The notes below the pieces were generated by a model. That model was not told the DNA's origin and did not search any database. It was given only the letters and a program-made list of their open reading frames with translations. Positions 5,425 to 56,625 of a DNA stretch of 64,000 bases are shown in pieces (position 1 is the first letter of the stretch; the number at the start of each line of letters is the position of its first letter). Source of the stretch: Monoplex corrugatus. Its lineage: Eukaryota; Mollusca; Gastropoda; Littorinimorpha; Ranellidae. Location: positions 38,433,630 to 38,497,629 of the forward strand of contig JAPXFY010000022.1 of assembly GCA_030674185.1 (NCBI GenBank), given 5' to 3'. The position numbers and the translations under genes are program-made.

Positions 5425-5628
5425 ATTTGAGAAAATGACAAGTATCCAGACAGCAAAGCTGGACAGAAAAAGAGCACCAGGCAGACCCAGGGAAAATATG
5501 TTGGACAGACTTGCAGAGTGGCTGAAGAAAGAGAGGGTGGAAGAGGTGCTTGCAGCAACAAGGGATAGAAACATATGGAGGGCCATGATCGCCAACACCA
5601 TGTGGCAAAGCACTTGATGATTATGATG
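5425..5628 (+). mobile_element. RTE-type LINE, 3' fragment
   Basis: Encodes a degraded RTE C terminus (RKRAPGRPRENMLDRLAEWL, NIWRAMIANTMW), homologous to the minus copy ending at 16504. The tail at 5620-5628 is short (GATGATTATGATGAT). Confidence 0.85.
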
Positions 5629-5969
5629 ATCCAGGCATGCTATATTTTCTTAAGGCAACCTCCGGCCAGTGCAGCAGCAGCCCTGAGGCAAGCCCCATCA
5701 CAATAGAGTTAAAAGAATTCATTAGTGTCTTTATTAGTTCACAATCCCTGGATCTCACCCGGGTCACTCCAACCCTGACCATTTCCCAGACTTCTTTTCC
5801 CAGTTGAGAGCTTTATTGCACTTAGACAGTTCCATATGTGCTTTACTTAGTCTGCCTTCTGTTATCAAGGAGATTCCTTGAGCCTGCGCACAACCTGTTT
5901 TGCTGGCAGTGTTTTGAAATGAAGGAATGGGGGGGGGGGGGGGGGGGAGGCAACAGGTTGTATGAAACA

Positions 5970-13041: not shown

Positions 13042-13077
<36 letters not shown>

Positions 13078-13080
13078 TAT
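12270..13080. repeat. AT-rich microsatellites with a local duplication
   Basis: A ~65-bp block (AACAGATCTAACAAAATGTA, AAAACCAAGCATTCGTTGCA) occurs at about 12340-12400 and again at 12497-12557. (TA)n runs follow at 12560-12630 and 13028-13080 with ATACAC/ATATGC variants around them. The Tyr/Ile/Cys frames are repeat artefacts. Confidence 0.85.
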
Positions 13081-13679
13081 GTGTGTGTTTGCGCATAAGA
13101 AAAGGAGGCTAAAGACGCAAGGACCTATTTTCGCGTACGGTCGAAATTGGTCTCTGACCGGTCAACTTGTCAATAATCTTATTTTTTGCTCAATCGATTT
13201 TACAATCATTTAACTTTATCATCGTACATTGATTCTACATGTTTACGCCTAAAAGGACAGAATTTTTGTGTTTAAAGTGGGTAGGGGTGGCCAACAAAGG
13301 TCTCAAATTTGGAACTTTTTGGTCTACTCCAAGCTTTGCAGTGTTCATTGAGAAACGAAGGGGTTTGCCTTTGTGCGCATGTATAAACTATGTCATGGGT
13401 GTAAAGTGGTCTCATTGAACTATTTTTAACCTTACTGCAGCGAACCAACTGCGTAGAAAGAGTGGAATTTTCCACGAATTCGACGACACAAGCACTGTGC
13501 TCCGTCTTTAGCCTCGTCGCAAAGTACGGTCAATTTTCAGCTAATTATTCACCTCCTGTGATTAAGTGTGAATTTTTTGAGTGACTTTAAGCCTTTATAA
13601 AGAAGTAAGACCCAGTTTTAAAACATCCTTCTGTGTTTTGGAACTGAAATAATTCAAGAAAGTGACCAAGGTGATAGCA

Positions 13680-13872
13680 ATGGCAACCGGAAGTGGGACG
13701 TCGACCGCTTCTGCTAAACAAATTTCGTTTGCTAGAATCGCAAGTCTCCTTAATGGAAGAGGGAATTTGCCAGTATCTGAGGTGTCTTCTGTCATTACCG
13801 ACTACTTTGCTGGTTCAGATGAAGATACTGATTCAGATGAAACTACTGATCATGATGAAGACACCACTCAAG
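13680..13872 (+). CDS. Transposase-like gene, exon 1
   Basis: ATG at 13680 opens MATGSGTSTASAKQISFARI and continues through SLLNGRGNLPVSEVSSVITD to an acidic D/E-rich tail (AGSDEDTDSDETTDHDED). It ends with one base (G) before donor GTAGGC; the next exon supplies GA to make Gly. No domain is recognisable; a short Ser/Thr head and acidic tail suit an N-terminal regulatory region. There is no in-frame ATG further upstream in the 5' leader that starts at the inverted repeat. Confidence 0.7.
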
Positions 13873-13949
13873 GTAGGCGTTTTTCTTTGTTGTGTGTGTT
13901 GGGCCTGCCCAACTATCACACAAGGCCGAATGTGTTGCCTTTCTGTTTT

Positions 13950-13959
13950 CAACCTAGCT

Positions 13960-13999
<40 letters not shown>

Positions 14000-14000
14000 T

Positions 14001-14042
<42 letters not shown>

Positions 14043-14267
14043 GTGTATAGTGCGTGCATGTGTGTGGTTTCCGTGTTGTGTGTGTGTGGGGTATTTATGG
14101 TGTGGGTGTGTGTGTGTGGTTGGGGTGTGTGTAGTGTGTATGTTGTCTTGTGTGGTCTGGGTGTGGTGTGTGTGCATGTATGCATGTGTGTGTGCGTGGG
14201 TGGGTATGGTTTGGTTGTTTATAGTGTGTGTGTGTGTGGTTGGCGTGTGTGTGTGTGTATGTGAGAA

Positions 14268-14330
<63 letters not shown>

Positions 14331-14570
14331 GGTGTGTGTGTATTGTTTTTGCATGAGGTTGATGATAATGGTGTGTGTGTCTGTGTGTGTGTAGTGTGCT
14401 GTAGTTTGTGTGTGGTGTAATGTTTGTGTGAGGTTTTACTGTTAGTGTGTCATGTTGTGGGTGTGGAATGGTGGTCAGTGTGTGGGGTTTGGTGTGTGTG
14501 CGTATGTGTGCTTGTGAGTGGGTGTACATGGTGTTTGTCTTTTGTTTATGCCTTTTTTCAGTAAAAAAAA
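13950..14570. repeat. (GT)n-rich microsatellite within intron 1 of the transposase-like gene
   Basis: Long imperfect GT tracts (13961-14040, 14270-14330) with TGG and TATG interruptions. Long Cys/Val frames on + and His/Thr frames on - are artefacts. Confidence 0.95.
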
Positions 14571-14604
14571 TACTCATGTGCTGTGAATTGTTGGTTTGTT
14601 ACAG

Positions 14605-15530
14605 GAGACTGCGAATCTGGTCCTGAAGATGACTATGAAACTGTGAAAAAGGATGACAGTGACATCAAAGCAGAGGCTGCTGATTCTGGCCAGTTTGCTG
14701 ACAATGCTGGGAAGAAGGATGTCAAAAGTGGTCACCAGTTCACCTGTTCTTGCAAGCTCAACAACCAGCCCTGTAGTTTGATGTTCACCCAAGTTGAGTT
14801 GCATGACTTGGGGGAGTGTCAACAGGCACTACTTAAAGATGAACTGGATTTGGCAGTGCTGACCCAGATTCGTGCAGGGATCCATGATGGGACTTTCACT
14901 GAACGACCAAAGCAGAAGAAACAGTCTGAAAGAAAGCGAGTTCGGGTGGAGTACACACACAAGGGCAAGCAAATTTGCAGAGACACTTTCATGTTTATTC
15001 GTGGAATTTATAAACGGAGACTCACGAACTTGATTGCGCATTATCGTGAACATGGCGTTACAGCACGTGTACATGTACACGGCAACACAAACCGCATTCC
15101 AAAACATTCCTTAATGTTTGATGAACGGATGGATGTTGTCAGGTTCATTCAGAATTATGCTGAAGAAAATGCAATTTTACTTCCCAGTAGAGTTCCAGGA
15201 TATTCCAGAACAGACGTAAAGCTACCGCCATCTTCATGCACCAAAAGTGCTGTCTACAAAATGTATGCTGATTCATGTGTAGTGTCTAACAAGAGAGCAG
15301 TTGCTGAGAGGACTTTCCTGCAGCTGTGGAGTGACTGTGTCCCAGAAATCCTTCCCATGAAACCAAAGAGTGATCTGTGTTGGACTTGCCAGAAAAACAG
15401 CAACTTGGTCCGCAGCAGCACCAACATCTCAGAGGAGGAAAAGCTGGACCTCTTCAACAAAGCCAGAGAGCACATCCAGCATGCCTGTGCAGAGAGGGAA
15501 GAATACAAGCGCATTCAGCGGCAAGCAAAG
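14605..15530 (+). CDS. Transposase-like gene, exon 2
   Basis: Acceptor TTGTTACAG; 308 codons plus the split Gly. It carries a Cys cluster (FTCSCKLNNQPCSLMFTQVE), a basic hinge (KQKKQSERKRVRVEY), KGKQICRDTFMFIRGIYKRR, HGNTNRIPKHSLMFDER, FIQNYAEENAILLPSRVPGY and a CxxC pair in DLCWTCQKNSN. I recognise this from uncharacterised, widely duplicated invertebrate proteins but cannot name a Pfam entry with certainty. The exon ends AAG before GCAAGT, a consensus GC-AG donor. The frame is intact throughout. Role inferred: DNA-binding half of a transposase. Confidence 0.75.
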
Positions 15531-16060
15531 GCAAGTTTACTATTATTATTAGGTACTCTATAGTCACAGAGGCGTCCCTGTGAAATTCGGGTTGCTCCCA
15601 CCTGGAGAGCGTGTTGCTAGCCAGAGGCGCGCCACCCCTTTTTTTCTTTCTATTTTTTTTTGCATGCAATTTTTGTGACTGATGAGGGGAGGGTGTAAAT
15701 TTTGACCAAAATGACAAACTTTTTTGTTGCCACTAGGTTTAACGTATGCTAAGTACATGGGCACACGGGACCTCGATTTATTGTCTCATCCGAAAGACTC
15801 CACGTTCAGACCGTAAGGCCTAGTGCAAAGTGACAGGAAAAATCCCCTGTACCCAGGTTCAAACTCGGGTTTACTTGAAAGAAGCGAACATGCTACCAGT
15901 GTGCCACTCTACACCTGTCTCTTATTGGAGCATTTAATAATAGAGATTTGTTTGTATTTTCTGCCCGAGTTACTAAACCAGACCATAAGCATTGTTCATT
16001 TAGGGTGTTATAATGATGCAATGTATTAGATTTTTTTTTTCTATCAGTACTTTGTACAAT
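15531..16060. other. GC-AG intron start with degraded repeat
   Basis: The intron opens GCAAGT. The stretch 15760-15910 (CACACGGGACCTCGATTTATTGT, TCTCATCCGAAAGACTCCACG, CCCAGGTTCAAACTCGGGTT) looks like an old interspersed repeat with a tRNA B-box-like GGTTCAAACTC. Nothing else recognised. Confidence 0.5.
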
Positions 16061-16079
16061 TAAAACTTTTACAAGGGAT

Positions 16080-16158
16080 GATAATTGTGTGTGCATACAT
16101 GCATGTGTATAGGGGGTGGGTGGGTGAGATTGTGCGTGTGTTTGTGTGTGATGAGAGC

Positions 16159-16189
<31 letters not shown>

Positions 16190-16260
16190 ATGAGAGGGAG
16201 GGAGAAAGAGAGAGAGAGAGTGTGTGTGTGTATCTGTGTGTGGGAGTGTGCAAGTTGTAA
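16080..16260. repeat. GT/GA microsatellite
   Basis: (GTGTGT), GAGAGGGAGGGAGAAAGAGAG and GTGTGT tracts; no gene. Confidence 0.9.
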
Positions 16261-16503
16261 TGTGAACAAGTGTGCAATGGTGAAGGAAGATTGGGGAGGG
16301 TATTGTGAGAGTGTGTACACTTGATATGTGCTTGATGGTTTGTTGTCATGCTGCTTCTGATTGTGAAAATGATGGGGTTCATAGCTAAAATTCTTACAAC
16401 TACAACAGTACAAGGAATAATGTTATTTATAACAATGATCATCATTATCATCATCATCATAGAAGGTTTTATATGTTGCACATTCAGATCATCATCATCA
16501 TCA

Positions 16504-16905
16504 TCAGGTGCCCTGCCGCATGGCGTTGGCGACCATGGACTTCCAACCATCTCTCTCTCTCGTTGCCCCCAGCATCTCCCCCACCCTCTTCATCCCCAGC
16601 CACTCTGCAAGTCCGTCCAGCATTCTCTCCCTGGGTCTACCTGGTGCTCTCTTTCCCTCCAGCTTTCCCGTTGTGACCAGGTGCTCCAAATCCCCCTTCC
16701 TCATAAAATGGCCTATAAATGTTGCCTGTCTTTTCCTAATCTTCCTTATGAGTGATCTACTTGTGTCTGCCTCCATCAACACTGTCTCGTTTGTTTTCTT
16801 TGCTGTCCATGGAACTCTCAACATTCTTCTGAGAAACCACATCTCGGCTGCCTCGATCCTGCTCTGGCTTTGCTTGCTGACTGTCCACGCCTCGCATCCG
16901 TACAA
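16504..16905 (-). pseudogene. RTE LINE C-terminal domain
   Basis: YGCEAWTVSKQSQSRIEAAE, FLRRMLRVPWTAKKTNETVL and KRAPGRPRERMLDGLAEWLG, ending just before the trinucleotide tail. This is the segment found as isolated 3' fragments at 1811, 5425, 37036, 42997, 49616 and 56416. Confidence 0.9.
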
Positions 16906-16935
16906 CAGTATTGGTTCTATATAACATTCAAGGAC

Positions 16936-17922
16936 TCACTTTCTGATGTTAATTGATAGGCATTTGTTGGTAAGAATGCTTGTCATCTTCTTGAATGCTG
17001 TTTTGGCTTGGCCGATTCTGCCAGCTATTTCCGATGTGCATCTGCCGTCTGATGAAATGACCGTTCCCAGGTATTTGAACTTATTAACCTGTGTCAAGGT
17101 TGTGCCGTTTGCTGTTATTTTGCAGGAGGGGATTTCATGTTTTTTACTGATCACCATGACTTCAATCTTCCAGCTGTTTAGTTCCAACCCCTTACCTTTG
17201 CTTTCTGTTTCTAGTATATTCACAAGGTTTTGTAGGTCCCTTTCATTTTCTGCAATTAGCATGGTGTCATCTGCGTACCGAATGTTGTTTATCATTTTCC
17301 CTCCAACCTTTAATCCAGAGTCTTCTTCTAGGTTTCTCATGATGTTTTCGCTATATAGTGAAAACAGATCTGGTGACAAAACACAACCCTGTCTGACTCC
17401 TCTTTTGATGTTTTGAAAAGAGCTTATATTGTTTTCTATTCTCATTGCAACTGTTTGTTCCCAGTACATATTCCTGATTACTCGTAGATCTTTTCCATCG
17501 ACATTGAGTCTCTCCAGTTGGTTGATCAATTCATCATGTCATACCTGATCGAAAGCCTTGGTATAGTCAACAAAGCATAAATACAAATCCTTATTCATCT
17601 CAATTGACCTCTCTATGATAGTTCTTAGGATGTATATGGCATTAATAGTTCCTTTCCCCTCCACAAATCCACACTGTTCTTCTGCTATTTCTGTTTTGAT
17701 TCTATTCCTTGTCTTCATCATGATTATTCTTAACAGGATTTTTGTTACATGACTCATCAAACTGATTGTGCGATGGAGTTCGCATTCTATAGCCCCTGTC
17801 TTCTTTGGAAGTGCAATGAAAATTGATTTTGACATATCTTTGGGGATTTTCCCAGTGTCATTAATTTCATTTAGGAGGACTGTTATTTTTTCTATGCCAA
17901 ATTCCTCCAGGGCTTCAATCAT
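16936..17922 (-). pseudogene. RTE LINE reverse transcriptase
   Basis: Two abutting frames: 17539-17922 encodes MIEALEEFGIEKITVLLNEI, SIFIALPKKTGAIECELHRT, AEEQCGFVEGKGTINAIYIL and LCFVDYTKAFDQV (catalytic Asp of motif A). 16936-17529 encodes GVRQGCVLSPDLFSLYSENI and IRYADDTMLIAENE (motif C YADD). A break between motif A and motif B at about 17530-17540 inactivates it. Parts match the 5'-truncated copy at 37036-37767. Confidence 0.9.
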
Positions 17923-18073
17923 CTCTGTAGTAATGTTGTCTGGTCCTGGGGCTTTTTCAGTGCTGCTCTAACTTCATCTTTCATTATGGGTGGTCCTTCT
18001 AAGTTCTTTTTCATAATGTGTTCTTCGTTTCTGTCATCCTCAAAAAGGTCTTTAATGTACTCTCCCCATCTGT

Positions 18074-18784
18074 CTAATATTTTGTCTTTTTCCATGATAA
18101 GCGTGCCATATTCGATTTTATGCAACCAGTTGATGTGCATGTATTTTTCCTGTGGACAATTTCTTCAATTCGTGTGTACATACCCTGAGGATCCATTTTG
18201 TGTCGTTCTTCTATCTCTTTGCATTTTGTGTTCAGCCAAGCTTCCTTAGCTTCATTGCACCTATACCTGATTTCTTTGTTTATCTTCCTGTATATCTCCT
18301 CGTTTCTCTTTGCCTTCCTCCTTTCCTCCATCAGGCCCAAAATTTCATTAGTCATCCAACTCTTTTTTGCTTTTCTATTTGCCTTAGGGATTTCTTCACA
18401 AGCTTCATTTATAGAACTTCTCAACTTTGTCCATTGTTCCTCACTGTCACCGTCTTCCAGAGCACTGAATTTGTTTTGAACATGTACATTAAATTTTTGA
18501 CGTATCATTTCATCTGACTTTAAGAGTCCAAGGTTTAGTTTGATGTTGCTTTTGGTCTGTTTCCTTCTCCTCAATTTCAGCCTGAACCTTCCCACTACCG
18601 GATTGTGGTCACTGTTGCAGTCTGCGCCTGGTAGTGTTTTTGCTGACAGTAAAGAATTTCTAAATCTTTTGTTGATCAGGATGTAGTCAATTTGATTTTT
18701 GGTATTATCTACTGGACTCATCCAAGTCCATTTTCTTCTGTTAGGCTGCTCAAACCAGGTGTTTCCTACTATGAATTCATTCAT
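18074..18784 (-). pseudogene. RTE LINE endonuclease C terminus and linker
   Basis: Contains QIDYILINKRFRNSL and DCNSDHNPVVGRFRLKLRRR (the final endonuclease Asp-His patch), then the Lys/Arg-rich linker typical before the reverse transcriptase of this clade. Frame ends at 18074 with a shift to the next block. Confidence 0.85.
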
Positions 18785-18880
18785 CTGTGCCCATTCTACA
18801 AGCTTCCCCCCTCTTTCATTTGTGTACCAAGGCCATGAGGTCCAACTATATCCTCCACCCTATCCTGTCCCACTTAAGCA

Positions 18881-19446
18881 TTAAAATCTCCCATTATGAC
18901 TGTAACTTCTTGTGATTTACATTGGACCTTGGCCATCTCTGAAACTTCGTAAAAGTTGTCGATGTCTTCCTGAGTACTTGCGGATGTTGATGCATACACC
19001 TGTATGGTGTTGATATCAAAAGGTTTGCCTCCGAATTTGACCAGTAAAACTCTGTCGGACACTGCCCAGTATCCCTTAACTGCTTTTGATTTGTCTTTGT
19101 CCATTATGATTCCTACTCCTCTTTCATGTGAATTACCACCAGAGTATATCACTGTATATTCCCCTGATGTTATCATGCCTGCCCCCTTCCATCTCACTTC
19201 CCCCAGTCCTAAAATACTAATGTTAAGCCTTTCCATCTCCATTTTGATGTTGTCTAATTTACCTTTCTGCAGCATTGTTCTTATATTCCACGTTGCTATT
19301 TTGGTGTTGAATTTAATTTTGGTCGCAGTAGCTGGCTGACGGTCTGGTGTCACCTGCGCCGCATGACAGTCCCTACCGGACGAAGGTGCTCCGCAGGAGC
19401 ACCTATTGATGTCATTAACTTTCTTCTTTCTCTTTCTCCTGTCCAT
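18881..19446 (-). pseudogene. RTE LINE endonuclease region
   Basis: Apurinic-type endonuclease N-terminal part: TKIATWNIRTMLQKGKLDNI, LNISILGLGEVRWKGAG (Asn and Glu of the first catalytic patches), GVGIIMDKDKSKAVKGYWAV and the catalytic VTVIMGDFNA. It is followed in a shifted frame by WTWMSPVDNTKNQIDYILIN and CNSDHNPVVG (18784 downwards), the C-terminal Asp/His patch. The frame break lies between these two blocks near 18800-18880. The function would be nicking target DNA for reverse transcription. Confidence 0.9.
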
Positions 19447-19660
19447 GGTTTTCCTGGGGAAAAACTACGATGGTGGTTTCCCCTTGCCTTCCATCATTTT
19501 TTGTTTTTTTTAGGGTTAACTCCCTTAACCTTACTCTCTCCTGAGATGTCCACAAGGCAGTGGAGCTATTTACCCATAGCTTGGGGATCTGGTTCGTGAG
19601 CACCAGGGCGACATTCAGATCGCTTAGTGAAAATAATTATTCTGCTTTAGTTCTTTCCAG

Positions 19661-19988
19661 GAAGCAGCAAAGGATCTTGCTCTGTCACTGCGCACGCCTG
19701 GAAACAACTTTCCAGACCAAGGTCGTGACCTGTTCTCCCACTACAGTTTCGACTTTGCACAGCAGTTGCATTATCCATCAAATCCACTGCAACCTGGGCT
19801 GATTTACTTTAAAACACCGCGCAAGTGTGGAGTTTTTGGAGTTCTGGTCGAAGCCTTGCCACAAATGGTGCTGTTTTTGCTGGACGAGGCTGTCGACACA
19901 GGCAAAGGAGCCAACACAGTCATAAGCATGCTGGATTTTTTTTGTTCACATTATGGTTTGAAGGAAAATGTGTGCCACCTGCATGCTG
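19661..19988 (+). pseudogene. Transposase-like gene, last exon, part before insertion
   Basis: Acceptor TTCTTTCCAG. Encodes EAAKDLALSLRTPGNNFPDQ, DLFSHYSFDFAQQLHYPSNP, LIYFKTPRKCGVFGVLVEAL, LLDEAVDTGKGANTVISMLD and ENVCHLHA, then is cut within an Asp codon at 19988 by the hAT-like element. FDFAQQ (candidate first acidic residue of an RNase H-like fold) and the later ADNC would be the DDE-type positions; that is inference. The reading frame resumes exactly at 21115 once the element and one duplicated target are discounted. Confidence 0.85.
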
Positions 19989-21109
19989 CATGGGTGAAAG
20001 TTGGCTGACGGATTGACGGATATCCGTCAATTCAAATGAGTGACTGACGGAAAATCCGTCAATTTTTTTCCCGGTGTTTTTTTTTTTTTTCCCCGAAAAA
20101 AAAATCAAAACTTCGGTCCGCGATCTGCACCCGATCCAAGTTATCGGTCCGCTCGGTTGTTTCCAGTCGCCATCTTGAAATTCATTCTCGTGGTTCGCTC
20201 GCTGCTGTGTGCCTCTCCTCTGTCTTTTGTTGTGATGGTGGTACAGTACCGAGATGAATTTCTTGAGCGATGGTGATAAGGAGGCGTTAGCGATTGACAA
20301 AAGCGTAAAGAATAAATGGTCATGGAAATGGCTAAGTGAAAAAGACAGCGAGGAGAGAGAATTTCGGTCGTGGTGCAGGAAAACCAACAAACGTTTGCCT
20401 TATTCATGATTGTTGACAAAATAAAAGGTAGCCTTATTTTCTGGTTATGGTGATCCATGATGTTTTGTGTGTTCTGTAACACTCCTGATTGTGTTGGTAA
20501 ATTAAAATATAATGTCTTTGGATTTGATAGTTGATAATGTCTTTGAATTTGATGGTCAAGATACTTAGGTTTGCCTTATTCATGGTTGTTGACAAGATAA
20601 AAGGTAGTCTTATTTCTGGTCATGGTGATCCATGATGTTTTGTGTGTTATGTAACACTCCTGATTGTGTTGGTAAATTAAAATATAATGAATTTGAATTT
20701 GATAGTTTCATTTATCTGTCATGTTTCATTTCAAAATACAATAATGTTTTATCAAATGGATAACATGCAAACTCAGAAATTTCACACTCTAATTGTGGCT
20801 AGACTTAAAAGCACTGTTGAAAATAGTTTGTGCAATTTAGTCACAATAGAGTTATATGAATAATAATGCACTTTAGGAAGTGTTGCCTTTAAAAACAAGG
20901 TAGTGTTGCAGCAAAGAAAATTTTACTCTCAGGTTCAAGGAGAGACCTCGAAAATGCTTTGAAAATGCGATTTTTCGTTTTCGGCCGGGGGGGTTCGCCC
21001 CCCTGGTCCCCCAGCGGGGCTTTGCCCCTGCACCCCACCAGGGGCCTCAGCGGCCCCTGGCCCCCGGCCAGATTTTCAGTCAAATCAAAATTTCCAACTT
21101 TCACCCATG
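19989..21109. mobile_element. hAT-like non-autonomous DNA element, 1,121 bp
   Basis: Perfect 16-bp inverted termini CATGGGTGAAAGTTGG (19989-20004) and its complement (21094-21109), with the 6-bp target ATGCTG duplicated at 19983-19988 and 21110-21115. Removal restores the host frame (H-L-H-A-D-N-C). The left subterminal region has alternating TGACGGA/TCCGTCA motifs, the right one a GC-rich hairpin block (20985-21070). It keeps a small coding remnant at 20254-20409 and two ~135-bp tandem copies at 20397-20530 and 20573-20706. Confidence 0.9.
20254..20409 (+). CDS. Short hAT-like protein N terminus inside the 1.1-kb element
   Basis: A 51-codon frame beginning MNFLSDGDKEALAIDKSVKN, then KWSWKWLSEKDSEEREFRSW and CRKTNKRLPYS, ending TGA. 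The Trp-rich K-W-x-W-x-W-L block followed by a Cys resembles the extreme N terminus of hAT-related proteins (ZNF862/C17orf113-like), where it precedes a zinc finger. The rest of the protein is missing, consistent with an internal-deletion derivative. Whether it is translated is unknown. Confidence 0.45.
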   Translation: MNFLSDGDKEALAIDKSVKNKWSWKWLSEKDSEEREFRSWCRKTNKRLPYS

Positions 21110-21114
21110 ATGCT

Positions 21115-21822
21115 GACAACTGCACCGGCCAAAATAAAAACAATGCAATGCTCCAGTACCTGCTTTGGCGTGTCATGACTGGCCAACATGACAGCATCAC
21201 TCTGTCATTCCTTGTTGCAGGACACACTAAATTCTCACCCGATTGGGCCTTTGGCATGTTTAAGAGAAGGTTCAGGTTGACGAAAGTGGACTGCTTAGAT
21301 GACATTGTTAATGTGACCAAGAAAAGCTCGTCTTCCGGCATCATCATACCACAGGTGTGTGGCAGCCAGGATGGCAACGTTGTCGTACCAACCAGAGACT
21401 GAACCACATTTCTGGACACCTGGTTCAGGAAACTGGTGGGACTCAAGCAATTCCATCACTTTGAGTTTGTTGAGACTGGGGAGGTTCATGTCAGGCTCAC
21501 TGTTAACTCCGATCGACAGGTGATCAACCTCCTGAAGGGTGCTGAGCGTCCAGATGGAACTCTACCTCCCATCCTGAAACCTGCAGGCCTGAGTGTTCAG
21601 AGATAGCATTATCTGTACAATGAGATCCGTGAGTTTGTTGATTGTGAACATCAGGATCTTGTCTGCCCAGCCCCGTGCACACCTTCAGATTCTGCGTCAG
21701 CATCTTCCTCGTCAGAACAACAACATGCTACAACCAGCAGCCTTCCCACACCAGTTGCTGTGCAGAAGAAGCCAGGCAGGCCCAAAAAGTCTCCAAGGGG
21801 ACTTGCAGCAAAGAAGAAATAA
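21115..21822 (+). pseudogene. Transposase-like gene, last exon, part after insertion
   Basis: Resumes with DNCTGQNKNNAMLQYLLWRV, then SFLVAGHTKFSPDWAFGMFK, RRFRLTKVDCLDD and GSQDGNVVVPTRD, a TGA at 21400-21402 (probably from TGG), TTFLDTWFRKLVGLKQFHHF, EVHVRLTVNSDRQVINLLKG, LPPILKPAGLSVQR, a TAG at about 21604-21606, then HYLYNEIREFVDCE and a C-terminal AT-hook KKPGRPKKSPRG before TAA at 21820. Two in-frame stops plus the insertion make the gene dead. The rest of the frame is remarkably preserved, which suggests recent loss. Confidence 0.85.
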
Positions 21823-22543
21823 GCACTTGAAAGAATGTCAGATTTTGGGGTTCCTTTCTGTGTGTCTGTCTCTCTCTCTCCCTTTTTTTTTTAAAGGAGA
21901 GGTTTTTTTGAAATGCCTGAATGTGGTAAAATAACTGTTACATGTACTACTATTGTTTTTGATGGTTTTGTTACACCCACAGCCACAAATTGGAGTGCTC
22001 TGCAAAGACGGATGGACTGGTGTGCTCTTAGCCATGTTTCAATAATTATACTGAGCGTAAATATATTTTTTTCACTTTATTATTCAAAATTATGCTTATT
22101 TTCCATCTATCTTTAGCCTCTAAACTATGGTTACCTTTTCATGTTCATCTCTGGCATTTTTGTTTTGTTGGGGGTGATTAATTAATTTTGTTGAATTTTG
22201 CGACATTTCACCATTCATATTTTATTTTCTGTGCTCATACAAAAGAAACATCTCATTTTCCTGACCTCACTGATCACTCTGAGATATTAGGAAGTAAATA
22301 TAGACTTTAGAAATACCAACAATTTGCTCAGGAAAATTCTGATTTTTGAGAAATAATATCTCAAATATCTTGAAATGTTTGTGGACAATTTTCTCTGTTC
22401 ATACTGTGTGTGGGTCATGCACTTCAAACTTGTGCTAAAAAAAAAAACTATAGAAGATAGAACAATTCTGTTTTTTTGCATCTTGTTCAGTGCACTTTGA
22501 ATTTTATAAGCAAATAAAAAAAATGAGAATGCAGAAATTTGGA
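21823..22543. other. 3' region of the DNA transposon
   Basis: AT-rich sequence between the stop codon and the right inverted repeat; holds a poly-T tract at 21888 and no coding frame. AATAAA-like signals (GCAAATAAAAAAAATG near 22509) lie close to the right end. Confidence 0.5.
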
Positions 22544-22567
22544 CTTTAGCCTCCTTTTCTTGTGCAG

Positions 22568-22569
<2 letters not shown>

Positions 22570-22608
<39 letters not shown>

Positions 22609-22690: not shown

Positions 22691-22692
<2 letters not shown>

Positions 22693-22696
<4 letters not shown>

Positions 22697-24032
22697 GGTG
22701 TTTTCCAGTAGAATGAGACCAACGAACTTATACGTCAAAGACTCACCGGCAAAAAAAAAAAATTTATTTCATCTGTTCGAAGTATTCACCTCCTGCTGCC
22801 ACACACTTCTGCATTGGCTCGATCCACAGTAGAAATGCCACTCTGCAGGCTTCTTTGGGTATATGTGACAGACACTGGAAAACCGCCATTTCCAAGGCTG
22901 CTCGGCTCTTGAAACTTCTTCCTGCCAGTGATTTCTTCAGATGTGGAAACAGGTAAAAGTCACAGGGTGCAAGGTCTAGGGAGTAAGCAGGGTGTGGCAA
23001 AGTATGGATCTTCTCGATTGCAAGGTATTCTCGTACGAGCCTTGACTTGTGAGCAGGTGCGTTATCATGAAGAATCTTGATTCCTCTCATGCCTGCGGTT
23101 GGTCGGGAAGTTGCATAAAACTTCTTGATGTCAGACAGTACTGAGTCTCTGTAGAACTTTCCGGTGATGGTCTCTCCTTGTTTGCATGGTTTCTGTAGCA
23201 CGATCCCCTTTGTGTTGAAAAAGATGGTGTATAACACTTTCTTTTGCGAACGTTGACGACGAGCGATTTGAGGAGGAATCCCACCTTTAGGAATCCAGGC
23301 CTTGTTCTGTGACTTTCTCCGAGGTTCATACATGTACACCCAGGTTTTGTCACCTGTCACAATTTCATCCAGCTGCTTTGGGTCGCAGTTCTTGTAAATT
23401 TTCAGCATATCTTGGCAGAAATGTAGCATACCCCCCTTATTTTCTGGCGTCAAAATGTGAGGGATCCATCTTGATGATGCCTTCCTGTAGCCAAGCTGAT
23501 TTCTTAGGATCCTTGATGCAGTCGACGAATGAATGTCGAGACAATCAGCGATCTCTTCAAGGCTGACTCTTGAATCAGCATCAACCACTGCCTTCACACT
23601 AGCCAGCAACTTTTCTTCACACTTTTTGCTTTTTTGCATTTTCCCCCTGTTGTCTTCAGTGCTGGCCTGGCCACTTGCAAAATATTTTACCTGTCTGAAC
23701 ACAGTTGCTTTTGAAGGAGCAGAAGGTTGTCCCAAAGCTCTCATGTCCGCAAGTGTTTCGGATGCATTATTTCCAAGGGCAACACATTCCTTGATGTAGC
23801 TGCGATAATCCCGCTGTTGAAAATGCCATTTTCTTTGCCATTTTTCAGATCAGTGTCTGACAGGGCCTTGACATACACTGTCAGAACCCTAAGACGGATC
23901 AAAGATGAATAACTAAATTTGGCACAGAATTACATCATAGGCTGACGTTTTCTGTGACATAATTTTCCGTTTTCTGTAAATGCGTTTTCAAGCTATACAG
24001 ACATGGTCTCATTCTACTGGAAAGTACCCTTA
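22693..24032 (-). mobile_element. mariner element with TA target duplication, 1,340 bp
   Basis: Inverted ends CGAGGGTGTTTTCCAGTAGA (22693) and the complement of TAAGGGTACTTTCCAGTAGA (ending 24032) continue as ATGAGACCA on both sides. TA lies outside each end (22691-22692 and 24033-24034). It sits between a GT tract and a TA tract. It contains one transposase gene on the minus strand. Confidence 0.92.
22764..23841 (-). pseudogene. mariner transposase (DD34D), one frame break at N terminus
   Basis: 326 uninterrupted codons from 23744 down to the TAA at 22764. An upstream in-phase extension reads FQQRDYRSYIKECVALGNNA, and the likely start ATG is at 23839-23841 in another frame, separated by one extra base in a T/A homopolymer at 23820-23823. 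Motifs: paired helix-turn-helix (SLEEIADCLDIHSSTASRIL, GYRKASSRWIPHIL), catalytic Asp in TGDKTWVYMYEP, HDNAPAHKS, and SLDLAPCDFYLFPHLKKSLA. There are 34 residues between the second and third Asp, the canonical DD34D signature. If the indel is a sequencing error this copy could be intact. Confidence 0.9.
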
Positions 24033-24043
24033 TATATATATAT

Positions 24044-36860: not shown

Positions 36861-37945
36861 TGATGATGATAGACACCTCATTTGATGAATTTAATTGTGT
36901 ATATACAAGACATCATATACATATTATGGGCATTTCTGCTACCTCATTTGATGAATTTAGATGTGTATACAAGACATCTTGTACAGATTTTGCACACGTC
37001 TGCAACCTCATTTGATGAATTTAGTTGTGTAGACAATAGAAAAGAGCAAAACTAAAGGACTGGAGCTAAATAAGAAGAAGACTGAAGTCATGGTAATCAG
37101 TAAAAAAAAAAAAAACATGAAATCCCCTCATGCAAAATAACAGCAAATGGCACAACTTTGAGACAGGTTGATAAGTTTAAATATCTGGGAACGGTCATCT
37201 CATCAGACAGCAGATGCACATCAGAAATAGCCAACAGATCTGCCAAGCCAAAATAGCAATCAAGGAGATGAAAAGCATTCTTACCATCAAATGCCTATCA
37301 ATTAACATCAGGAAGAGAGTTCTTGGATGCTATATAGAAATGATACTGTTATACGGTTGTGAGGCATGGACAGATAACACACAAAGCCAGAACAAGATTG
37401 AGGCAACTGAAATGTGGTTTCTAATAAGAATGTTGAGAGTTCCATGGGCAGCAAAGAAAGCAAACAAGACAGTCTTGAAGGAGGCAGACATGAGAAGATA
37501 ATTGAGAAAGAAGATTAGAAAAAGACAAGCAAGATTTGTAAGACATTTTATGAGGAAAGGGGGATTAGAGCACCTGGTCACAAAAGGAAAGCTGTAGGGA
37601 AAAGAGAGACCCAGGGAGAAAAATATTGGACGGACTTGCAGGGTGGCTGAGGACAGAGGGTCGGAGATGAACTTGCAGCGACAGGGGATAGATTCATATG
37701 GAGGGCCATGATCGCCAACAGCATGCGGCAGGGCACATGCTGATGATGATGATGATGATGATGATGATACAAGACATGATGTACAGATTATGGGCATGTC
37801 TGGAAACCTTATTTGATGAATTTGGTTGTGTATACAAGATAAAATGTTCAGATTATCTGCATTTCTGCAGCCTCATTTGATGAATTTAGATGTGTGTACA
37901 AGACAGCATGTTCCGATTATCGGCATGTTTGCATTTTGCCAAGAA
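36860..37945 (+). repeat. 64-bp tandem array interrupted by an RTE fragment
   Basis: Units of TTTGATGAATTTAGTTGTGT, ATACAAGACATCATGTACAG, ATTATGGGCATGTCTGCAAC, CTCA at 36876-37035 and 37768-37945. The RTE copy sits after TTAGTTGTGTA of one unit. Confidence 0.9.
37036..37767 (+). mobile_element. RTE-type LINE, 5'-truncated, (GAT)n tail
   Basis: Begins in the RT domain after motif C (TKGLELNKKKTEVMVISKK-type sequence), then GTTLRQVDKFKYLGTVISSD, NIRKRVLGCYIEMILLYGCE, MWFLIRMLRVPWAAKKANKT and ends with GATGATGATGATGATGATGAT at 37741-37767. Frame breaks and an A14 run at 37106. Same family as 16490-19600. Confidence 0.9.
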
Positions 37946-42815: not shown

Positions 42816-42996
42816 GACAATAACATGTGTAATATGAGTCGTGTGAGTTTGGAAAATAGTGCTGCACCACGTCCGTAAATTGAAATAATCATTGACATGT
42901 AGGTATGCTTAAATTTTGTATTCAGGTGTGTTTTTTGAATCCCTTGTGTGATAAATTGGAAGGAGTGGTCAATGCCAGGGGGATGTTCTTAGATAA

Positions 42997-43365
42997 AGCC
43001 AGAACAAGATTGAGGCAGCCGAGATGTGGTTTCTAAGAAGAATGTTGAGAGTTCCATGGACAGCAAAGAAAACAAACGAGACAGTCTTGATAGAGGCAGA
43101 CACTAGAAGATCATTCATAAGGAAGATTAGGAAAAGACAGGACAACATTTATGAGGAAAGGGGAATTGGAGCACCTGCTCACATTAGGAAAGGTGGCGTG
43201 AAAGAGCGCACCAGGTAGACCCGGAGAGAAAATATTGGACAGACTTGCAGAGTGGCTGTAGACAAAGAGGGTGGAAGAGGTGCTTGAGACAACATAGGAA
43301 TAGAAACCGATGGAAGTCCATGATCGCCAACGCCATATGACAAGGCACTTAATGATGATGATGAT
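42997..43365 (+). mobile_element. RTE-type LINE 3' fragment inserted in repeat A
   Basis: AAGCCAGAACAAGATTGAGG, MWFLRRMLRVPWTAKKTNET, EADTRRSFIRKIRKRQ and a GATGATGATGAT tail at 43353-43365, breaking a repeat A copy at GGGGATGTTCTTAGAT. Confidence 0.88.
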
Positions 43366-49615: not shown

Positions 49616-49875
49616 CAGGTGCTGGCCATTAGGAACAGACAAGCAACATTTTGGTGACATTTTATAGGGCAGGAGAAATTTGAGCACCTGGTCATAACAG
49701 GAAAGCTGGAGGGAAAGACAACGCCAGGTAGGCCCAGGGAAAATATACTGGACGGACATGCAGAATGGCTGAGGACAGAGAGGGTGGGAGATGTACAATG
49801 TACTTGCAGCGACAAGGGATAGATTCGTATGGAGGGCCATGATCACCAATGCCATGTGTCAGGGCACATGATGAT
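49616..49875 (+). mobile_element. RTE-type LINE, 3' fragment
   Basis: GCCATTAGGAACAGACAAGC, GGAGAAATTTGAGCACCTGG, AACGCCAGGTAGGCCCAGGG, ending GGGCACATGATGATGG. Homologous to the 3' part of 16490-19600. Confidence 0.85.
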
Positions 49876-50172
49876 GGTGAGTACAGGTGCTATCATGAGG
49901 TTTTAACTGAACCTGGATATTTGAAATGAGAGATTTAAAATCACTCAGATTTTCTGATGCAGTCTTGTTGATTTGAATATCTCCATATGATTGACTTTCT
50001 TCTCCTTACTTTTGTCTTTTTGGCGTATAGATCTACACCTGCATTATTGCCCGCTGCGTCCACTCTGTACAGAATTCTTTTCATAATAATGATAGTGTCT
50101 GACATCAGTGCAGTATTCATCAGCATATCGTAGAACGGCCAGCAAAGAGTGGAAATGCCCCTGACCTCGATT

Positions 50173-56339: not shown

Positions 56340-56415
56340 ACTCCAGTACCCTATCCATCAACAGCAAATCCATAATCCTTTGATTTCCTCGCCCTATCCA
56401 CCAGCTTCCTGCAGG
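56340..56415. repeat. TTAA-type MITE, one arm
   Basis: CACTCCAGTACCCTATCCAT, CCTTTGATTTCCTCGCCCTA, TCCACCAGCTTCCTGCAGGA then directly an RTE 3' fragment. Confidence 0.7.
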
Positions 56416-56625
56416 AGGGAAAGAGAACACCAAGTAGACCCATGGAGAAAATATTGGACAGACTTGCAGAGTGGCTGAGGACAGAGAGGGTGGGAGATGT
56501 AATTGCAGCGACAAGGGACAGATTCGTATGGAGGGCACATGATGCCGATGATAATGATGATGACAACGACGACGATGATGATGATGATGATGACGATGAC
56601 GATGACGATGATGATGAGATGATGA
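56416..56625 (+). mobile_element. RTE-type LINE 3' fragment with (GAT)n tail
   Basis: AAGAGAACACCAAGTAGACC, GAAAATATTGGACAGACTTG, GACAAGGGACAGATTCGTAT and a GATGACGATGATG tail to 56625. Confidence 0.85.

Follow-up and report, generated by a model that had tools for sequence, protein, structure and literature searches.

A decayed DNA transposon of Monoplex corrugatus with a spliced DUF7869 gene that likely encodes a DDD transposase

A stretch of 64,000 nucleotides from the genome of the gastropod Monoplex corrugatus (GenBank assembly GCA_030674185.1, contig JAPXFY010000022.1, positions 38,433,630 to 38,497,629 of the forward strand), hereafter referred to as the window, contains a spliced gene that is enclosed by a pair of inverted repeats. 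This arrangement raises the question of whether the gene encodes the transposase of the element that the repeats delimit and, if so, to which transposon family the element belongs. The product of the gene contains the domain DUF7869 (PF25273), for which Pfam states no function. We consider it probable that the locus is a dead DNA transposon. Its DUF7869 gene is likely to code for a transposase of the DDD type, and its family is probably Sola2. The gene is likely to be the transposase because its relatives in bacteria are also located between inverted repeats.

Inverted repeats and the gene between them

The inverted repeats CAYAAGAAAAGGAGGCTAAAG have exactly two matches in the window, even when up to three mismatches are allowed, and a search of 100 shuffled sequences yielded no match to this 21-mer. 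The two copies differ from each other at a single base (T/C at position 3). A preliminary description of this DNA had reported 21-bp (base pair) inverted repeats with one differing base, and these results confirm it. Within the window, the repeats pair only around the DUF7869 gene; a gene located between terminal inverted repeats, as is found in DDE/D transposons generally, is thus present here. The element and the later insertions that it contains occupy approximately 9.5 kb of a 3.02-Gb genome, and 5213 bp (approximately 5.2 kb) remain after a long interspersed nuclear element (LINE) in intron 2 and an insert in exon 3 are subtracted.

Three exons were predicted on the forward strand between the repeats, with GT-AG splice sites for intron 1 and GC-AG splice sites for intron 2, and the reading frame is continuous over both junctions. 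Read in this one frame, the exons hold CSCKLNNQPC, CWTC, SFDFAQQ, HADNCTGQNKNN, HTKFSPDW and a C-terminal KPGRPKK, in agreement with the spliced gene with Cys clusters and the FDFAQQ and HTKFSPDW motifs that had been proposed. As for the C-terminal AT-hook proposed at the same time, KPGRPKK looks AT-hook-like by eye, but no AT-hook was found among the Pfam matches of the protein at E-values up to 1. The preliminary description did not mention that the gene has decayed. The insert at 19989-21109 interrupts exon 3 at the codon for D483, and two in-frame stops (21400-21402 and 21604-21606) are present in exon 3 after this insert. Because of this split, the two stops and the LINE in intron 2, the window copy of the DUF7869 gene is dead.

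The Pfam DUF7869 model matches residues 428-610 of the window protein (E 1.2e-14; 54.7 bits, over a cut-off of 26). In an alignment of the window protein and nine bacterial proteins, which are described in the next section, D404, D448, D483, N484, NKN at 489-491, G518, H519 and D525 are invariant. There are 78 residues between D404 and D483 and 41 between D483 and D525. The first of these aspartates lies in SxDxxQ, the second in DN behind a hydrophobic stretch and the third after GHTKF. This motif order and the invariant aspartates fit a DDE/D core, putatively RNase H-like, in which D404, D483 and D525 would form the catalytic triad. By eye, the bacterial proteins also show Cys clusters towards the N-terminus and a CxxC ahead of the core, and the Cys clusters and the basic tail may bind DNA.

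Outward of the 21-bp repeats, the two ends of the element remain alike (GTGTGTCTGCACAAG on the right and GTGTGTGTTTGCGCATAAG on the left), and both flanks then become (TA)n. The true ends are probably at 13081 and 22573, which lie 9-13 bp beyond the repeats in the (TA)n tract. With the ends placed at these positions, the AAAA tract on the right begins at position 16, matching the bacterial relatives. The boundaries 13094 and 22564 given previously coincide with real inverted repeats but are probably too short by this distance. Boundaries exactly at CATAAG...CTTGTG were considered and rejected; no duplication is visible there by eye, and the bacterial layout fits the extended ends better. Because the flanks consist of (TA)n, the target duplication of the window element is unreadable. 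Exact copies of the core sequence GAGGCTAAAG were found at four sites in the window and the adjoining 200 kb on its right. Every one of them is inside the element, one in each terminal repeat and one inside each (391 and 423 bp inward), and the inner copies may be sites at which the transposase binds.

Bacterial relatives and their elements

A DNA pattern for DNCxGQNKN was searched for in genome_contigs, which contains one genome per species for 84,980 species, and identified three stretches. One of these (L001) was rejected as a chance motif match. The second (L002), from Desulfocicer vacuolatum DSM 3385, contains a single frame of 657 amino acids without introns. Its product is 35% identical to the window protein over residues 112-698 (E 1e-91) and also matches the unjoined window DNA in three main coding pieces (E 4e-30, 5e-20 and 9e-20). 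The third (L003), from Candidatus Thiomargarita nelsonii, contains two overlapping frames of 303 and 308 amino acids. These frames (L003:1752-3583) overlap by ATGTTAG, and the N-terminal part and the core lie in different frames; coupling or frameshifting is possible in this arrangement. A protein search of genome_contigs with the window core yielded 81 stretches, none of which was confirmed.

The Pfam DUF7869 model gave a single match in 398 genomes of the L003 phylum (the L003 genome itself), two in 42 genomes of the L003 family, seven in 389 genomes of the L002 order (including the L002 genome) and none in 14 control genomes. In the L002 phylum, a profile search covering 395 genomes matched the L002 genome alone, and a search of 86 genomes of the L002 family with the L002 protein matched three (L002, L006 and a short fragment, L005). 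Altogether, nine distinct bacterial loci exceed the Pfam cut-off, each in its own genome: G001 (L002), G049 (L006), G481 (L003), G915 (L044), G953 (L047), G960 (L048), G1003 (L045), G1044 (L049) and G1056 (L046). L050 scores below the cut-off and was left out. Within the genomes sampled, the DUF7869 family is therefore rare in bacteria. No relatives of the window protein were found in viral, phage and plasmid collections, where eight viral stretches with a motif match yielded only one weak protein match (E 0.04). NCBIfam and PHROGs gave no significant match, the first L003 frame drawing weak transposase names (E 0.11 and 0.027).

Paired terminal inverted repeats surround the gene in six of the nine loci. 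The lengths of these elements, followed by the number of the first 30 bases at which their two ends agree, are as follows: L002, 2116 bp and 30; L003, 2044 bp and 30; L044, 2056 bp and 30; L045, 2067 bp and 27; L048, 2715 bp and 28; and L049, 2339 bp and 25. The Desulfocicer gene lies within a perfect 43-bp inverted repeat and the two Thiomargarita frames within a 45-bp inverted repeat (91% match). In all six elements, the DUF7869 gene occupies nearly the whole 2.0-2.7 kb. The window protein thus has bacterial homologues whose genes take up elements with inverted repeats, and there is good support for the proposal that its own gene encodes the transposase of a defined element. As for the other loci, L047 starts inside its element, so that one end is visible, and L046 has a masked right flank; the fragment L005 likewise starts inside an element. 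L006 (1-2616) encodes a distant DUF7869 protein of 725 amino acids, and a DUF6788 gene adjoins it on the opposite strand.

The bacterial elements share the layout of their ends. The tips are G-rich, with GGG in all eight ends compared, and L045 has GGC at its left end. AAAA is located at position 16 in all eight bacterial end sequences (from seven elements) and is followed by a partly shared box. A[AT][AT]T adjoins the element end at 14 of the 15 readable junctions, the exception being ATGT, in loci where this 4-mer class accounts for 3-6% of positions; the 15 junctions include a solo end (L011) and two loci with a single reachable end (L005 and L047). The bacterial elements thus have a clear target preference for A[AT][AT]T. 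The tips were alternatively read as ATGGGG with a duplication farther out, and this was rejected, as no such duplication was seen by eye in L002, L044, L048 and L049, the four elements to which this reading can be applied. The solo end is a 25-bp Desulfocicer-type end beside ATAT in genome G031 (L011:1497-1525), with neither a gene nor a second end within the 3 kb examined. In L048 (1-3552, reverse strand), copies of GTACCTAT are present inside the terminal repeats, three per side, and are possible protein-binding sites.

A four-protein tree built from 273 shared columns separates the window protein and L002 from L003 and L006 in 95% of 200 bootstraps. In a ten-protein tree, the window protein and L048 are separate from the rest (approximate likelihood-ratio test 87, ultrafast bootstrap 83). 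With these groupings, the window protein falls among the sampled bacterial lineages. Horizontal transfer between bacteria and eukaryotes, in either direction, is possible, and the trees are suggestive only in this respect.

Mechanism, family and alternative explanations

In the mechanism that we propose, movement would be by cut-and-paste: the DUF7869 transposase would bind to both the terminal and the subterminal repeats, excise the element and integrate it into A[AT][AT]T targets. As for the family, a review describes Sola elements as having DDD transposases and 4-bp duplications and as occurring in bacteria and metazoans (PMC10741241), Bao and Jurka give AT-rich 4-bp duplications of the form AWWT (ATAT, AAAT and ATTT) for Sola2 (PMC3627910), and a survey of molluscs counted Sola1, Sola2 and Sola3 elements (PMC10294476). 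On these descriptions, Sola2 is the likely name. The elements described here resemble Sola2 in their DDD-type transposase (as predicted above), short terminal inverted repeats and AWWT 4-mers, and the presence of DUF7869 in bacterial loci and in this mollusc element would be in keeping with the range reported for Sola. By likeness to published descriptions, the window element and its bacterial relatives probably belong to Sola2. The preliminary description knew this type of protein only as uncharacterised, which is probably too strong because there are reports of Sola2 transposons with such targets (PMC3627910).

Several observations weigh against this reading. Of the six complete bacterial elements, only two have the same flanking 4-mer at both ends (ATTT in L003 and AAAT in L045), and the other four differ in the middle of the 4-mer (AAAT/ATTT, ATAT/ATGT, ATAT/ATTT and ATAT/ATTT). 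The bacterial flanks do not clearly show a simple 4-bp duplication. These unequal flanks speak against an insertion of the plain Sola2 type, unless the flanking bases were altered afterwards. One of the nine loci, L006, has no terminal repeats, and the left end of the window element has AAAA at position 20 instead of 16. When one mismatch is allowed, the window contains no significant excess of GAGGCTAAAG (six copies versus 3.06 expected; 13 of 100 shuffles reach six). The 200 kb that follow the window on its right contain neither the repeat nor the gene a second time, a span too short to estimate copy number. As regards the catalytic core, solved structures gave no sequence match to the window protein, and a profile search of such structures returned nothing at E-values up to 10. 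By eye, the DN after a hydrophobic stretch and a PD-containing stretch approximately 40 residues later resemble Tc1/mariner transposases; however, an hhalign comparison with the mariner transposase encoded at 22764-23849 of the window was not significant (probability 0.6%).

The mechanism would be the same if DUF7869 represented a separate, unnamed DDD superfamily of bacteria and eukaryotes rather than Sola2. We regard this as unlikely, though it deserves serious consideration: neither DUF7869 nor PF25273 is named anywhere in the literature searched, where motif strings yielded no relevant paper either, and the inequality of most bacterial flanks is unlike the duplications reported for Sola2. 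However, Sola elements with a DDD transposase and 4-bp duplications are reported from both bacteria and metazoans, and the AWWT targets reported for Sola2 are the 4-mer class at nearly all bacterial junctions; both points favour Sola2. A more elaborate form of the idea, which seems rather improbable to us, would make DUF7869 its own DDD superfamily spanning bacterial insertion sequences and eukaryotic transposons, with one end code (tip G, AAAA at position 16 and AWWT) and with bases beside the old site carried along to the new one in place of a plain 4-bp duplication, hence the unequal flanks in four of the six elements.

That the DUF7869 gene is instead a passenger or a host gene in an element moved by another transposase is very improbable. 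The catalytic role is putative, which leaves some room for such a gene, but there is little space for a second transposase in the six bacterial elements because the DUF7869 gene takes up almost all of each. Still less credible is a chance adjacency of repeats and gene. Although only one copy from the host is at hand, with microsatellites on either side of it, none of the shuffled sequences contained a match to the 21-mer, and the same arrangement recurs in bacteria.

A Pfam domain without a function thus gains a testable role, as the part of a transposase that likely carries out catalysis. Genes with DUF7869 in gene sets would then count as transposon genes unless shown otherwise. The intron-free bacterial relatives of approximately 2 kb, one of which is in a culture-collection strain (D. 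vacuolatum DSM 3385), open the mechanism to laboratory testing, and bacterial and eukaryotic versions of one element become comparable at the level of protein identity given above. All of these proteins score above the Pfam cut-off, and the domain is tied here to inverted-repeat elements.

Feature coordinates and neighbouring elements

Table 1. Positions of the element, its predicted gene and later insertions in the window
Feature	Position	Strand	Remark
ATAT flank, left of proposed end	13077-13080		
Proposed outer part, left end GTGTGTGTTTGCG	13081..13093	+	putative, from similarity of ends and layout of bacterial relatives
Left terminal inverted repeat as reported	13094..13114	+	21-mer match
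Subterminal GAGGCTAAAG copy, 391 bp inside left repeat	13506..13515	-	putative role
Predicted exon 1, DUF7869 gene	13680..13872	+	
Predicted exon 2, Cys clusters CSCKLNNQPC and CWTC	14605..15530	+	L002 protein match E 5e-20
Later LINE in intron 2, reverse transcriptase domain	16491..19621	-	11-bp duplication ACATTCAGATC
Predicted exon 3, first part, D404 and D448	19661..19988	+	L002 protein match E 9e-20
Later 1121-bp insert in exon 3	19989..21109	.	16-bp inverted repeats CATGGGTGAAAGTTGG; direct repeat ATGCTG on both sides
Predicted exon 3, second part, DNCTGQNKNN, GHTKFSPD, basic tail	21116..21819	+	L002 protein match E 4e-30
End stop of predicted gene	21820-21822	+	
Subterminal GAGGCTAAAG copy, 423 bp inside right repeat	22111..22120	-	putative role
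Right terminal inverted repeat as reported	22544..22564	-	21-mer match
Proposed outer part, right end	22565..22573	-	putative
ATAT flank, right of proposed end	22574-22577		

The insert in exon 3 contains an internal direct repeat of approximately 140 bp (20393-20532 and 20569-20707; 93.6% identity). The LINE in intron 2 (3.1 kb) matches reverse transcriptase with an E-value of 3.5e-22, and its endonuclease matches weakly. Fragments resembling the 3' part of this LINE are located at 37025-37756, 42995-43365, 49628-49880, 1815-2045, 5455-5630 and 56411-56497. Starting 119 bp beyond the proposed right end, a mariner-type element with imperfect 29-bp ends occupies 22692-24033. Its frame of 361 amino acids, read from stop to stop on the reverse strand (22764-23849), matches Transposase_1 and DDE_3.

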